From the NCBI RefSeq assembly GCF_028595285.1, contig NZ_JAQQXQ010000005.1, forward strand, positions 62,001 through 126,000: a stretch of DNA of 64,000 bases, given 5' to 3'. Both the position numbers and the translations under genes were made by a program. Below, one piece after another: positions 12,646 to 52,492 of the stretch (its first letter is position 1; the number at the start of each line of letters is the position of its first letter). Below the pieces are notes generated by a model that saw only the letters and a program-made list of their open reading frames with translations, was not told the DNA's origin and did not search any database. The stretch comes from Erythrobacter fulvus. Lineage in GTDB: Bacteria; Pseudomonadota; Alphaproteobacteria; Sphingomonadales; Sphingomonadaceae.

Positions 12646-12673
12646 TTCACATTCAGGAATGCCGCGCTATATC
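12646..12673 (+). promoter_or_regulatory. Sigma-70-type promoter for ssrA
   Basis: TTCACA (12646-12651), a 16-base spacer and TATATC (12668-12673) are upstream of the tmRNA and would start transcription near 12680. Confidence 0.5.
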
Positions 12674-12679
12674 AGCCAT

Positions 12680-13017
12680 GTCGGGCAACCGACTATGGCG
12701 ATAAACTGCGCTGTGTCATAGGCGCAACGGACCCGGGGGCAGTACCCGGCGGCTCCACCAGAAGCTGCGCTTTGCGCTGTTCCTGATGGGGCCGAACTAG
12801 GATCGACGTGTGTTGAAAAGCAGTGTTTTCGTCCGGGCTGAGTAACCCGTTAAAGGCTCAAAACCAATAAGTGCCAACGACAACGAAGCACTTGCTCTCG
12901 CTGCGTAATGTGACGGCTTAACGGCCTGAATTTACAAAGCTAAGAGCACGGTTCGGACCGAACCGGGTAACAGAATCGGAAACCGGGGGCCCGGGGGAGC
13001 CTAGCAACAGAATCCCC
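12680..13017 (+). ncRNA. ssrA: tmRNA, circularly permuted two-piece form
   Basis: Rescues stalled ribosomes and tags the nascent peptide. The acceptor piece comes first and ends CGGCTCCACCA at 12760; the coding piece begins GGGGCCGAAC at 12788. This reversed order is the alphaproteobacterial permuted gene, with the 27 bases between removed in processing. GGGGCCG (12788-12794) pairs with CGGCTCC (12750-12756), giving the G3-U70 wobble needed for alanine charging. The tag frame is 12873-12908, encoding ANDNEALALAA then TAA. The T arm is atypical (GGGGGCAGTACCC), as seen in alphaproteobacterial tmRNA. The outer ends (start about 12680, end in the final hairpin about 13017) are estimates. Confidence 0.92.
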
Positions 13018-41736: not shown

Positions 41737-41887
41737 GCGTCCTCTCCTCAAGAGCGATTTCGAGCGTACTGCCATCAGTGCGCGGCTCGGAAATCGCGCC
41801 AGAAAACAAAGAAAGCGATCTCTCGCTTTCCGAAATACCGAGCGCATTTGTGGCCGGATAGGCCCGCAAAGGGAAGGGGATACAAAC

Positions 41888-41914
41888 AAAAAGGGCGAGC
41901 CATCGGCCCGCCCC
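41888..41914 (-). terminator. Second (duplicated) atp operon terminator
   Basis: Minus-strand hairpin GGGCGGGCC/GGCTCGCCC with a GAT loop, followed by TTTTT; an exact copy of the terminator at 41967 created by the 79-bp duplication. Confidence 0.8.
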
Positions 41915-41966
41915 TGTTGGTCGTTCGTCGATTGCCTGAAGGTGTCAGCCTTCGACATGCTCCGCC

Positions 41967-41993
41967 AAAAAGGGCGAGCCATCGGCCCGCCCC
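41967..41993 (-). terminator. First atp operon terminator
   Basis: Hairpin of the same sequence, 31 bases beyond the atpC stop on the minus strand, followed by TTTTT. Confidence 0.85.
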
Positions 41994-42023
41994 TGTTGGT
42001 CGTTCGTCGATTGCCTGAAGGTG

Positions 42024-42281
42024 TCAGCCTTCGACATGCTCCGCAAGCACGGTGAGGCCCTTTTCGTTGACCTCGGCAAAGCCGCCGCGCACCTGAATGA
42101 CTTCAGGCGCAGCGCCCGCGCTGGCGAACACCTGCACTGCGCCGTCGCGGATCGTGCTCATGAAAGGCGCGTGGCCTTCGAGCACCCCGAATTCGCCCTC
42201 GGTGCCGGGGACGACCACCATGTGGACGTCTTCCGAACGGACGAGCTTGGCCGGGGTGACGAGTTCGAAGTGGAGGGGCAT
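42024..42281 (-). CDS. atpC: ATP synthase F1 epsilon subunit, short form
   Basis: An 85-residue epsilon subunit that forms part of the central stalk. It has the N-terminal beta-sandwich ([32 protein letters not shown]) with GGFAEV near the end, but lacks the C-terminal two-helix inhibitory domain found in E. coli epsilon (139 aa). Short forms are known in alphaproteobacteria. It is the last gene of atpHAGDC, 6 bases after atpD ends. Its 3' end is duplicated in tandem downstream. Confidence 0.93.
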
Positions 42282-49788: not shown

Positions 49789-51360
49789 TTAAGGCGCGCC
49801 CCCGCTTTGACGGGCGACGCAATCAAACACCAACCTTTCGTTCGGCCGATCGGGCAGCAGCGCAACCAGCGCGGATTGCTGTTCGCCTAGCGTACGCGCA
49901 GCCTCGCTTACCTGACAGGCGGGCGGAGTGTACTTGCCGCGGGCGGCGACCACTTTCGCCATATCCGCCTGCCCCAGCAAATAACGGTCGGTGCGGAATG
50001 TGCGGGTGGCCGGATCATAAGTGTTGACCGCGACCGCAGCCTCGTCCTCCAGCACCAGCACGCGGCTCCATTCGCCGCCTGCCGAAAGGCCGTATTGCGT
50101 GCGCCCGTTGACGCAGCCATCGGCGTTCCAGTCCAGCGCGACGTCGTCGGCGCGCGCGCTGGTGACCCGGCTGCGGTCGGGCAGGAAGGAACATAGCAGC
50201 GCCCCGTCGGCGGCCTGCGAAGGCGCACCGGCAGCGCTACCGCCTGCGTCCCCGTCCTTTTCTGCCTCGGCAAGGGCAGCGGCCACGCGGTCCTCGATCT
50301 CGGCAAGGCCAGGCCGGGTGAGCCACAGCAGCCCAGCAATAATCACCGCCGCGCCCGCCGCGCCTGCCGCCAGTCCGGCGCGCTTGCTGGTGGCCGGATC
50401 GCGCCGCCACTGCACGGCGGCCGCCCCGCTGCCGACTGCAACCAGCAGCGCGATCAGGGCCAATGCCATGGCGTTCTCGCGCGCCTCGAGCACTTCCATC
50501 TGCGCCGTCAGGCGCGCCTTTTCGCGCACCTCGCCCAGCCGCGCCGCGCGTGCGGCCAGCCGCTCGCGCGCGTCGCTTTGCGCCGCTTCGAGCCGCTGGC
50601 GTTCCTCGGCATTGAGCTCGTCGATCGAACGGCAGGGCAGGGCGTTGGTTACCGGCTCGACCTTGTTGTCGCGGAGGAACGGCAGCAATTCGCGCAAGGA
50701 AACCGCAAAGTAGAATTCGGCATCCCCGCTATCCGAATCCGCGCCGAAGGAATTGACCCCGAGCACTCGTCCGCACCCGTCGAGCAGCGGGCCGCCCGAA
50801 TTGCCGCGCGCGATCGGGGCGGTGTGGAGAATGGTGTCGAATTGGCGGCTGGGCCGCTCGCCCGACAGGAAACCGCGCGATTTGACCGGCGGCTGGGCGC
50901 GGAAGATGTCGTCCATCGTCAGGCCCTGTGCCAGATCGACATTCATCGGATAGCCCACCGCCCAGACTTCGCCCAAATCGCGTCCCACGCCGCCCGCCAG
51001 CGTCAGTGGTGGCAGACGCAGCGTGCCGCGGGCGATTTCGATCAGCGCCAGATCATTGCGCGGCGAAACCGCGATCACCCGCGCGAAAGTGCCGCCTTCG
51101 CCCTCGCTCGGCACCACGCCGATGCGCAGCGTATCGTCCTGCAAGGCTTCCTGAATGACATGGGCATTGGTGACGATCCGCGTCGGACTGACGGCAAAGC
51201 CGCTGCCATGGGTGACGGGCACCAGCGCGCCGTTATTGTCCCCGATCACCACCACGCGCACGACTCCGCGCGCAGCGGCGTCGATGTCGCCGGGATCGGC
51301 GGCCAGCGGGGCGGCGAGGGCAGCGATAAGCAGCGCAAGGGCGCGGAACATGAGGCGCAT
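49789..51360 (-). CDS. Trypsin-like serine protease with two membrane helices
   Basis: A 523-residue protein. A signal peptide (1-20) precedes an S1C/trypsin-like protease domain (about 30-230) with His67 (TNAHV), Asp103 (RNDLALIE) and Ser188 (RGNSGGPL). A coiled region (about 253-297, ERQRLEAAQSDARERLAARAARL) leads to two membrane helices (about 299-318 and 331-350), then an unknown C-terminal domain with several Cys (LLCSFL, ADGCVNG, FDCVARQSGG). No PDZ domain, so it is not a standard DegP. It may cleave periplasmic targets while anchored in the membrane. Confidence 0.8.
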   Translation of the reverse strand: MRLMFRALALLIAALAAPLAADPGDIDAAARGVVRVVVIGDNNGALVPVTHGSGFAVSPTRIVTNAHVIQEALQDDTLRIGVVPSEGEGGTFARVIAVSPRNDLALIEIARGTLRLPPLTLAGGVGRDLGEVWAVGYPMNVDLAQGLTMDDIFRAQPPVKSRGFLSGERPSRQFDTILHTAPIARGNSGGPLLDGCGRVLGVNSFGADSDSGDAEFYFAVSLRELLPFLRDNKVEPVTNALPCRSIDELNAEERQRLEAAQSDARERLAARAARLGEVREKARLTAQMEVLEARENAMALALIALLVAVGSGAAAVQWRRDPATSKRAGLAAGAAGAAVIIAGLLWLTRPGLAEIEDRVAAALAEAEKDGDAGGSAAGAPSQAADGALLCSFLPDRSRVTSARADDVALDWNADGCVNGRTQYGLSAGGEWSRVLVLEDEAAVAVNTYDPATRTFRTDRYLLGQADMAKVVAARGKYTPPACQVSEAARTLGEQQSALVALLPDRPNERLVFDCVARQSGGAP

Positions 51361-51446
51361 GGGCAGGGCTTATAACGCCTTTTGCGCGGCGCGCGAGATT
51401 GAACGCAAGACTTGGGGGGTGCGGCAGGGCTTTCGTTCTGGCAGAG

Positions 51447-51462
51447 TGTTTCACGTGAAACA
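51447..51462. promoter_or_regulatory. parS site (ParB centromere)
   Basis: TGTTTCACGTGAAACA, a perfect 16-bp palindrome identical to the canonical chromosomal parS bound by ParB. It lies across the start region of ada. I found no second copy in the window. Confidence 0.85.
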
Positions 51463-52492
51463 TTTGCAGAACATTACTGACGAGGAACGCTGGCAGGCCG
51501 TGCTGGCCAAGGACCGCAGCTATGACGGCGCCTTCGTCACGGGGGTGCATTCGACCGGCATCTATTGCCGCCCGTCATGCCCGGCGCGGGCCCCTTTGCG
51601 CAAGAATGTGTGCTTCTACGCGAACCCGAAAGAGGCTGAAGAGGCTGGCCTAAGATATTGTAAATGCTGCTCTCCTGATCACCAGAGCGCGGAAGAGGCC
51701 TGCGTGCTGGCCGCCATTGCCGCGATCCGCCGGAACGGCGCAATGACGCTGGAGGCGCTCGCCGATCTTACCGGTTACACCCCCACGCATTTCCAGCGGC
51801 TGTTCACCCGCAGCGTCGGCCTGTCCCCTGCCGCCTTCGCCCGCGCACTGCGCGAGGAGCGCGTGCGCGATGCGCTGAGTTCGGGGGAAAATGTGGCGAG
51901 ATCGCTCGAACTTGCGGGCTATTCGGGGGCAAAACAGTTCTACGCGCAGACAAAAGGCAGGCTGGGCATGGCGGCGAGCGATTGGAGCAGGGGCGGCGCG
52001 GGCCGCGTGGTGCATTGGGCGGTGCTGGACACCTCGCTGGGGGACATGCTGGTGGCGGCGACCGACAAGGGCGTGTGCTGTCTGGCCTTCGGCGAAGGCG
52101 AGGCGGAACTGCGCGCCCGTTTCCCCAAGGCGCAGCTTGAGCCTGCGGGCGAGGATTTCCGCGATCTCTTCGCGCAGGTGCTGGCGGCGGTCGAACAGCC
52201 GGGAACGGGTTCTGCGGCAATTCCGCTCGACGTCAAAGGCACGGCCTTCCAGCAGCGGGTGTGGGAAGAATTGCGCCGCATCCCTTGTGGAGAGACGCGC
52301 AGCTATGGCGAGCTTGCCGCTGCCCTCGGCAACCCCAAGGCATCTCGCGCGGTAGGCGGGGCCAACGGGGCGAATAATGTCGCGGTGCTGATCCCCTGCC
52401 ACCGCGTGATCGCCAGCGATGGCACGCTTGGCGGCTATGCCTATGGCCTTGCGATCAAGGCGGAACTGCTGCGGCGCGAGGGCGCGGACTGA
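51455..52492 (+). CDS. ada: Ada, bifunctional DNA repair / transcription activator
   Basis: About 345 residues from the GTG at 51455 (the start is uncertain: 51446, 51464 or 51419 are other GTG/TTG options; the GTG at 51455 is inside parS). The N-terminal Ada zinc domain has YCRPSC and RYCKCC (four Cys ligands; the first accepts methyl from phosphotriesters). An AraC-type HTH follows (LADLTGYTPTHFQRLF), then the O6-methylguanine methyltransferase with the acceptor Cys in IPCHRVI near the C-terminus. All three domains are complete. Confidence 0.9.
   Translation: MKHLQNITDEERWQAVLAKDRSYDGAFVTGVHSTGIYCRPSCPARAPLRKNVCFYANPKEAEEAGLRYCKCCSPDHQSAEEACVLAAIAAIRRNGAMTLEALADLTGYTPTHFQRLFTRSVGLSPAAFARALREERVRDALSSGENVARSLELAGYSGAKQFYAQTKGRLGMAASDWSRGGAGRVVHWAVLDTSLGDMLVAATDKGVCCLAFGEGEAELRARFPKAQLEPAGEDFRDLFAQVLAAVEQPGTGSAAIPLDVKGTAFQQRVWEELRRIPCGETRSYGELAAALGNPKASRAVGGANGANNVAVLIPCHRVIASDGTLGGYAYGLAIKAELLRREGAD

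Follow-up and report, generated by a model that had tools for sequence, protein, structure and literature searches.

The ada locus and its parS word

The window, i.e., the whole stretch of 64,000 nt analysed here, corresponds to C16:62001-126000 of a 3.11 Mb draft genome of 20 contigs, in the following called the source genome. Its ada gene (Table 1) is identified by NCBIfam NF011964 (354.4 bits, cut-off 345) and encodes the Pfam domains Ada_Zn_binding, HTH_18 and methyltransferase. A gap of 85 bp separates it from a divergent open reading frame, and an exact parS word lies at the ada edge of this gap. The most upstream ada start codon is a GTG (51446-51448), the last two bases of which are the first two of parS; alternative starts are GTG 51455 and TTG 51464. 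A scan for sigma-70-like promoters, i.e., for that promoter type only, gave none in 51300-51560, and a terminator scan at ada found none.

Table 1. Features discussed for the window
Feature	Coordinates	Strand	Remark
tmRNA gene	12665-12999		called by ARAGORN (asterisk-marked); tag ANDNEALALAA
Tandem duplication	41887-42044		79-bp stretch, perfectly duplicated
Divergent neighbour ORF	49789-51360	-	reads like a trypsin-type protease; label from the translation alone
ada, O6-methylguanine-DNA methyltransferase with AraC-type HTH	51446-52492	+	parS corresponds to codons 1-6, (M)FHVKH
parS, exact TGTTTCACGTGAAACA	51447-51462	.	overlaps the ada start
GAACAT extension, half-site-like	51469-51474	+	GAAC starts 6 bases beyond parS

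The preliminary description of this DNA had called the site a perfect canonical parS palindrome at the translation start of ada, covering a candidate start codon, and had judged a chance origin of the 16-mer unlikely. Our results agree on all of these points. The site is an exact 16-bp palindrome of the TGTTYCACGTGRAACA kind (two wobble positions free), and it is the sole match within the window even if up to three mismatches are allowed; dinucleotide shuffles contained any such loose match in 8 out of 100 cases (mean 0.08). Throughout the source genome, the exact word is present 15 times, another 13 copies deviate at one position and 2 at two positions, and the reversed control yields none.

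Chromosomal parS sites load ParB and mark the centromere, with their usual place being near the origin and parAB. A cognate parB is present in the source genome (C12:130332) and has four exact sites beside it (C12:126748-129280), or four exact and two one-mismatch sites when the adjoining range C12:124543-129280 is considered. The encoded ParB carries LGKGLGALLGE, GERRWRA and KSRSHVAN, which we take to be motifs of chromosomal ParB proteins. The other 11 exact words, that at ada being one of them, are spread across ten contigs. The earlier suggestion that the window lies within an origin-proximal ParB-loading zone is not supported: parB and its site cluster are on another contig (C12), and in two relatives, G003 and G022, the distance between the orthologous ada site and parAB amounts to about 851 and 934 kb, respectively, with parAB serving as the stand-in from which we infer the origin position. 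Given these distances from the parAB cluster, 51447-51462 is a parS as judged from its sequence, but it is located outside the ori domain and is not an origin-marking centromere site.

Conservation at ada

Among 80 ada loci, 32 have a parS word at the same place (23 exact, 4 in the Y/R form TGTTYCACGTGRAACA and 5 with one mismatch), and it is absent in 48, one of which (L188) stops short of the ada start. Since the 32 loci had been picked by the word, such that counting their codons 2-6 is circular, we repeated the test on 30 loci for which the only criteria were that Ada is 79% or more identical and that the start is present. All 30 carry parS (22 exact, 3 TGTTTCACGTGGAACA, 5 with one mismatch), i.e., the site is conserved at ada in these relatives.

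The codons of this protein-picked set were compared as well. Codon 2 is TTT in 30/30 loci, with phenylalanine elsewhere in ada being encoded by TTT and TTC at a ratio of 95:255. Codon 5 reads AAA in 27 and GAA in 3 loci, and this Lys/Glu change tracks the parS variant. Outside of parS, codon 8 ends in G in 29/30 loci even though nine amino acids are encoded there, and 28/30 have AAC as codon 9. The first codon varies (ATG 14, GTG 14, TTG 1, GCG 1), and over codons 13-62 the loci agree in 57% of third positions (ungapped comparison, 29 loci). The word is kept although synonymous sites drift, and the codon pattern fits a constraint on the DNA and not on the protein.

Two classes of genomes

For a genus survey, we counted sites in 61 congeneric genomes, 52 of which have at least 90% completeness and at most 5% contamination. 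Per genome, between 0 and 52 copies are exact. Counts of TGTTYCACGTGRAACA are bimodal, i.e., 0-5 copies in 32/61 and 7-68 copies in 29/61 genomes; the reversed control gives 0 in all. The listed site coordinates of G025 and G035 coincide with those of G068 (E. colymbi) and G077 (E. cryptus), respectively, which puts the window in the Erythrobacter/Porphyrobacter group. The same split is seen for 39 titled genomes that came from the 80 ada loci: a parS at ada goes with 13-69 copies in all 14 cases, and its absence with 1-4 in all 25. High counts are found, e.g., in Erythrobacter sp. WG (69), Porphyrobacter sp. AAP60 (54), E. cryptus and E. colymbi (30 each), E. donghaensis (20) and E. tepidarius (19), and the 25 low-copy genomes comprise, by title, 16 from Qipengyuania or Aurantiacibacter and several from Erythrobacter. 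In each of the seven low-copy genomes with listed places, all sites are within 3.6 kb. In a ParB tree of 22 genomes, a branch supported at 100/99 separates the nine dispersed genomes from the rest.

When 387 alphaproteobacterial genomes are screened, 15 show at least seven copies, the source genome among them. Two others were sampled in part. The AT-rich genome G478 (0.9 Mb) has 154 copies of TGTTYCACGTGRAACA, and most of 13 copies seen in 71 kb (L260-L266) are flanked by CAAACATAAA-like arms, either on a single side or on both, which looks like an independent case of a mobile palindrome centred on parS. Genome G293 (1.8 Mb) has 79 copies, with 12 in 160 kb (L267-L274) partly forming tight clusters of ATTGTTTCACGTGAAACAAT-like words and near variants. 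Both look like cases separate from the Erythrobacter dispersal.

Positions round the chromosome

Site positions were compared with G003 and G022, two one-contig relatives with 45 and 47 dispersed sites. The set of the source genome consists of 19 sites, i.e., the 11 exact and 8 of the 11 one-mismatch dispersed sites. Counterparts exist for 14/19 in G022, for 12/19 in G003 and for 17/19 in either, where our own arithmetic gives a chance expectation of one to three shared positions per comparison. The ada site is one of the orthologous positions (L013 in the source genome, L021 in G003, L149 in G022). Between G003 and G022, 26 sites pair one-to-one with a common flanking gene, and 17 of these pairs have two or more genes in common. 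The flanks of 21 non-coding orthologous pairs are 38% identical over 40 bp, such that the sites have outlived their surroundings at shared positions. Many scattered copies far from the origin, which the preliminary description had named as an observation against its reading, are indeed present, but the copies are conserved and not noise.

The distances of dispersed sites from parAB are compatible with a uniform distribution (KS p 0.26 for G003, 0.67 for G022). The smallest gap between dispersed sites is 8.3 kb in G003 and 11.6 kb in G022, which is above random in both (P 0.004 and 0.0002). Compared with random placement, the spread of gaps is reduced in G022 (P 0.017), which is not the case in G003 (0.77). 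The part of G003 most distant from parAB is sparse, with 6/45 sites in the last quarter, and the largest gap is 401 kb (P 0.09). A search for a dif-like pattern as mark of the terminus gave no match in G003, G022, G026 and G043, and one three-mismatch match in the source genome that we did not use.

With regard to genes, for which we used a home-made caller that possibly misplaces starts and stops, 38/45 dispersed sites of G003 and 38/46 of G022 are intergenic (one further G022 site is unplaced). Gaps between convergent genes hold 22/45 and 26/46 sites, where 0.4 and 0.35 are expected, and gaps between divergent genes hold 3/45 and 1/46. As most sites are between or past genes, regulation of adjacent gene starts cannot be their general purpose.

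A phased 11-bp array beside parS

Many dispersed sites are accompanied by a tandem array with a unit of 11 bp (YCAGACCCCYT in G003, YTAGACCCCCT in G022). At least two units within 140 bp are found on one side of parS for 24/45 sites in G003 and 39/47 in G022, and on both sides for none; control flanks show an array in 1/4800 and 2/5320 cases, respectively. The distances of the nearest unit to parS cluster near 19, 30, 41, 52 and 63 bp. That is, they equal 8 modulo 11 in 14/24 (G003) and 28/39 (G022) cases, with nearly all of the rest being one off (Rayleigh test about 1e-8 and 3e-14). Such a phase at period 11 places array and parS in one helical register. No bias of array orientation relative to parAB is observed, as 15/24 (G003) and 17/39 (G022) arrays are on the parAB side. 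Where a convergent gap holds both elements, parS is located 4-31 bp past the stop codon of the array-free side in 13/14 cases in G003 (48 bp in the remaining one) and in 20/24 in G022 (at least 110 bp in the others).

A search for the array pattern that disregarded parS gave matches in 6/6 genomes of the dispersed clade (1 match in the source genome) and in 0/7 low-copy genomes. Among the matches listed, 15/18 array places in G022 have a parS within 120 bp and 11/17 in G003 have an exact parS. We inspected 20 array loci without a listed exact-type parS: 13 have a parS-like word with at most two mismatches, including L247 with the full TGTTYCACGTGRAACA word, one has a word with at most three, and 6 have none.

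Two roles of the array and its surroundings in transcripts were tried and rejected. A general role of the C-rich array as a Rho utilisation site was discarded because it is sense about as often as antisense in codirectional settings (9 vs 7). An extended RNA hairpin round parS is not seen either, with the 45 G003 sites giving -21.83 vs -21.94 for flank-swapped sequences (sd 0.53). Neither mark of a terminator, i.e., extended stem or sense-strand C-rich array, is therefore found.

In the source genome, a degenerate period of 10-11 bp can be made out by eye beside about 8/19 sites, and the ada site is without the 11-bp array. Instead, the ada site is a member of a smaller class marked by GAAC six bases past parS. 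This offset is found for 8/19 examined dispersed sites of the source genome (about 0.17 expected) as well as for 3/45 sites in G003 and 4/47 in G022; one of these 15 GAAC-bearing sites also has an array. The exact word CATTTGCAGAACAT occurs three times in the source genome, each time against a parS.

The reader of the sites

The two wobble positions provide information about what reads the sites. In G003, 52/54 words are of the T/A type. In G022, which is part of the dispersed clade, 0/55 are, i.e., 52 are TGTTCCACGTGGAACA and 3 are mixed. The change affects both site sets, as TGTTCCACGTGGAACA is found for 7/8 parAB-proximal and 45/47 dispersed sites. Accordingly, both wobble positions differ in 21/21 orthologous non-coding pairs of G003 and G022, where the identity of the other 14 core positions follows from the choice of sites and carries no weight. 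Within 3.5 kb of parB, both words are exact in 8/8 genomes of the dispersed clade besides G022, and 13 low-copy genomes have mixed words there, most of which carry C/G at one wobble position or at both.

Since dispersed and parAB-proximal words have changed together from T/A to C/G, i.e., the dispersed sites follow the specificity of the proximal ones, ParB is the most economical reader. We thus consider a single reader of both sets, most likely ParB, to be indicated by this joint change. T/A and C/G forms coexist in other genomes (exact words are 46/68 in G040, 20/30 in G025 and 15/22 in the source genome), such that the wobble may be tolerated and not strictly read.

A family search finds a single ParB-family match in G003 and likewise in G011, which have 52 exact sites each; a dedicated Noc-type paralogue was found in neither by this search. 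Other dispersed genomes show up to 10 matches, e.g., 4 in the source genome, 6 in G022 and 10 in G025, with one each above the family cut-off in the source genome and G022. In genomes with several matches, a second reader besides ParB is possible. The word CATATGTAGAACAT, which flanks the parS of L001, is found exactly again at L018:1813-1826 (C19:11177-11190 of the source genome), where a second ParB-like gene has its match at a distance of 70 bp; the 101 bases viewed there contain no parS.

The ParB of G022 (L083) has GHAKTL where the other 21 aligned proteins have GH(A/V)RAL. It further reads SHIANMHR at a place that is SHVANMMR in other members of its clade. Its HTH differs from that of G003, including a K at the position aligned to R204 in our own alignment; R204 contacts DNA in Caulobacter ParB (numbering after PMC7383237). 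These differences may be a lead on what changed specificity.

Discussion

Taken together, the ada site probably belongs to a network of parS sites that is specific to this clade, extends over the whole chromosome and serves to organise the nucleoid. More tentatively, the clade may possess a distributed, holocentric-like centromere in which parS and phased arrays form modules and ParB and its partners act chromosome-wide. As part of this still tentative reading, no two modules would be closer than about 8-12 kb, and they would often be placed between convergent genes.

Under such a model, the chromosomal ParB would load as a CTP clamp at every dispersed site, such that ParB and its recruits (SMC or a MipZ-type division regulator) would be spread over the nucleoid and not just near parAB. 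The phased array may bind a second factor, which would provide the loading site with a direction or boundary. Placement past gene ends would keep ParB off promoters, and the cluster beside parAB would be retained for segregation. An effect of ParB on ada expression is possible; its occupancy of the ada start would probably lower or gate expression, as a local exception and not as the purpose of the network.

Livny et al. 2007 is reportedly the basic survey of how parS sites are distributed; the comparison made here draws on later papers. Among the matches listed in a search of open-licence PubMed Central titles and abstract starts, there was no description of parS dispersal in Erythrobacter or Porphyrobacter. 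The sites resemble a common chromosomal ParB-parS centromere in the 16-bp word, the ParB motifs and the cluster beside parB, but there are tens of them round the chromosome, whereas the maxima in Table 1 of PMC7022226 are 22 for Myxococcus xanthus and 21 for Streptomyces coelicolor, all in the ori domain. B. subtilis also has several sites off its main cluster; its parS sites span about 0.75 Mb according to PMC8357415, whereas here the whole chromosome is covered, with convergent gaps and phased arrays. The SegB protein of Sulfolobales is likewise a segregation protein with many sites scattered over the chromosome (PMC12284271), but it belongs to the archaeal SegAB system, and according to that source most of its sites are inside genes, with the main share close to segAB.

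The position of parS is regarded as tightly restricted, and from studies of other bacteria one would expect the dispersed arrangement to do harm. The alphaproteobacterium Caulobacter is reported to tolerate a second parS cluster only within a zone of about 500 kb (PMC5815017), and strong sites set far apart lead to Smc collisions in B. subtilis (PMC8357415). According to the latter source, scattered parS is confined to a small number of lineages and would seem counterproductive if such collisions are to be avoided. From these findings, the dispersed state should cost fitness unless it is compensated.

Among the alternatives, a role of the dispersed sites as a ParB reservoir is unlikely but has a precedent in P. 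aeruginosa, where ParB is found on hundreds of half-parS sites, i.e., at many places far from the origin, and where the authors favour a reservoir (PMC10419367). Occupancy of this kind is predicted in our case, and the sites differ: single 7-bp half sites are described there, while full palindromes at positions common to species are found here. A reservoir would require neither shared positions nor convergent placement, minimal spacing or a phased array, all of which are observed.

It is quite unlikely that another DNA-binding protein, e.g., a global regulator, reads the dispersed motif and that its parS identity reflects convergence or co-option. The position of the ada site on a gene start, the few sites between divergent genes and the further ParB-like genes of the source genome and G022 would suit such a regulator. 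It is opposed by the joint word change of both site sets in G022, by the location of most sites between or past genes and not at divergent promoters, and by the single ParB-family match in G003 and G011.

We regard it as very improbable that the site is retained to regulate ada, i.e., that ParB represses or times the alkylation response. The word at the ada start in all 30 loci with an Ada identity of at least 79% would be explained thereby, but dozens of other sites, mostly off gene starts, would not, and the scanned region shows no promoter of the sigma-70-like type.

The probability of a Noc-like occlusion, in which dispersed sites mark the nucleoid and keep division off, appears similarly small. 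Noc is recognised by binding sites of a ParB relative that are dispersed, and in alphaproteobacteria MipZ is a target of ParB; a MipZ version of this reading is possible. However, Noc/NBS of Firmicutes features its own sequence, a dedicated paralogue and terminus exclusion. Here, the word is that of parS, one ParB-family match is present in G003 as well as in G011, and no significant gap is found opposite parAB, but G003 has few sites in that part.

Finally, passive spread of a mobile or terminator-like palindrome containing parS is extremely unlikely: placement past stop codons does recall repetitive palindromes, and most copies seen in the unrelated AT-rich G478 are within a longer palindrome, but positions are common to different species, 39 paralogous G022 sites share on average 31% identity in the flanks that lack an array (higher only in the first few bases), RNA stems in G003 are no better than flank swaps, and the array has no transcript sense.

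If the clade does have such a distributed centromere, Erythrobacter would on one occasion have departed from the rule that bacterial centromere sites cluster near the origin and re-engineered it, and the protein on the array would be a new chromosome-organising factor. The clade includes cultured members and has 7-69 sites round the chromosome, such that ParB, SMC and division under distributed loading are directly testable. Sister lineages with few clustered sites provide a ready control, and the genome-wide word change in G022 offers a natural experiment in ParB specificity.
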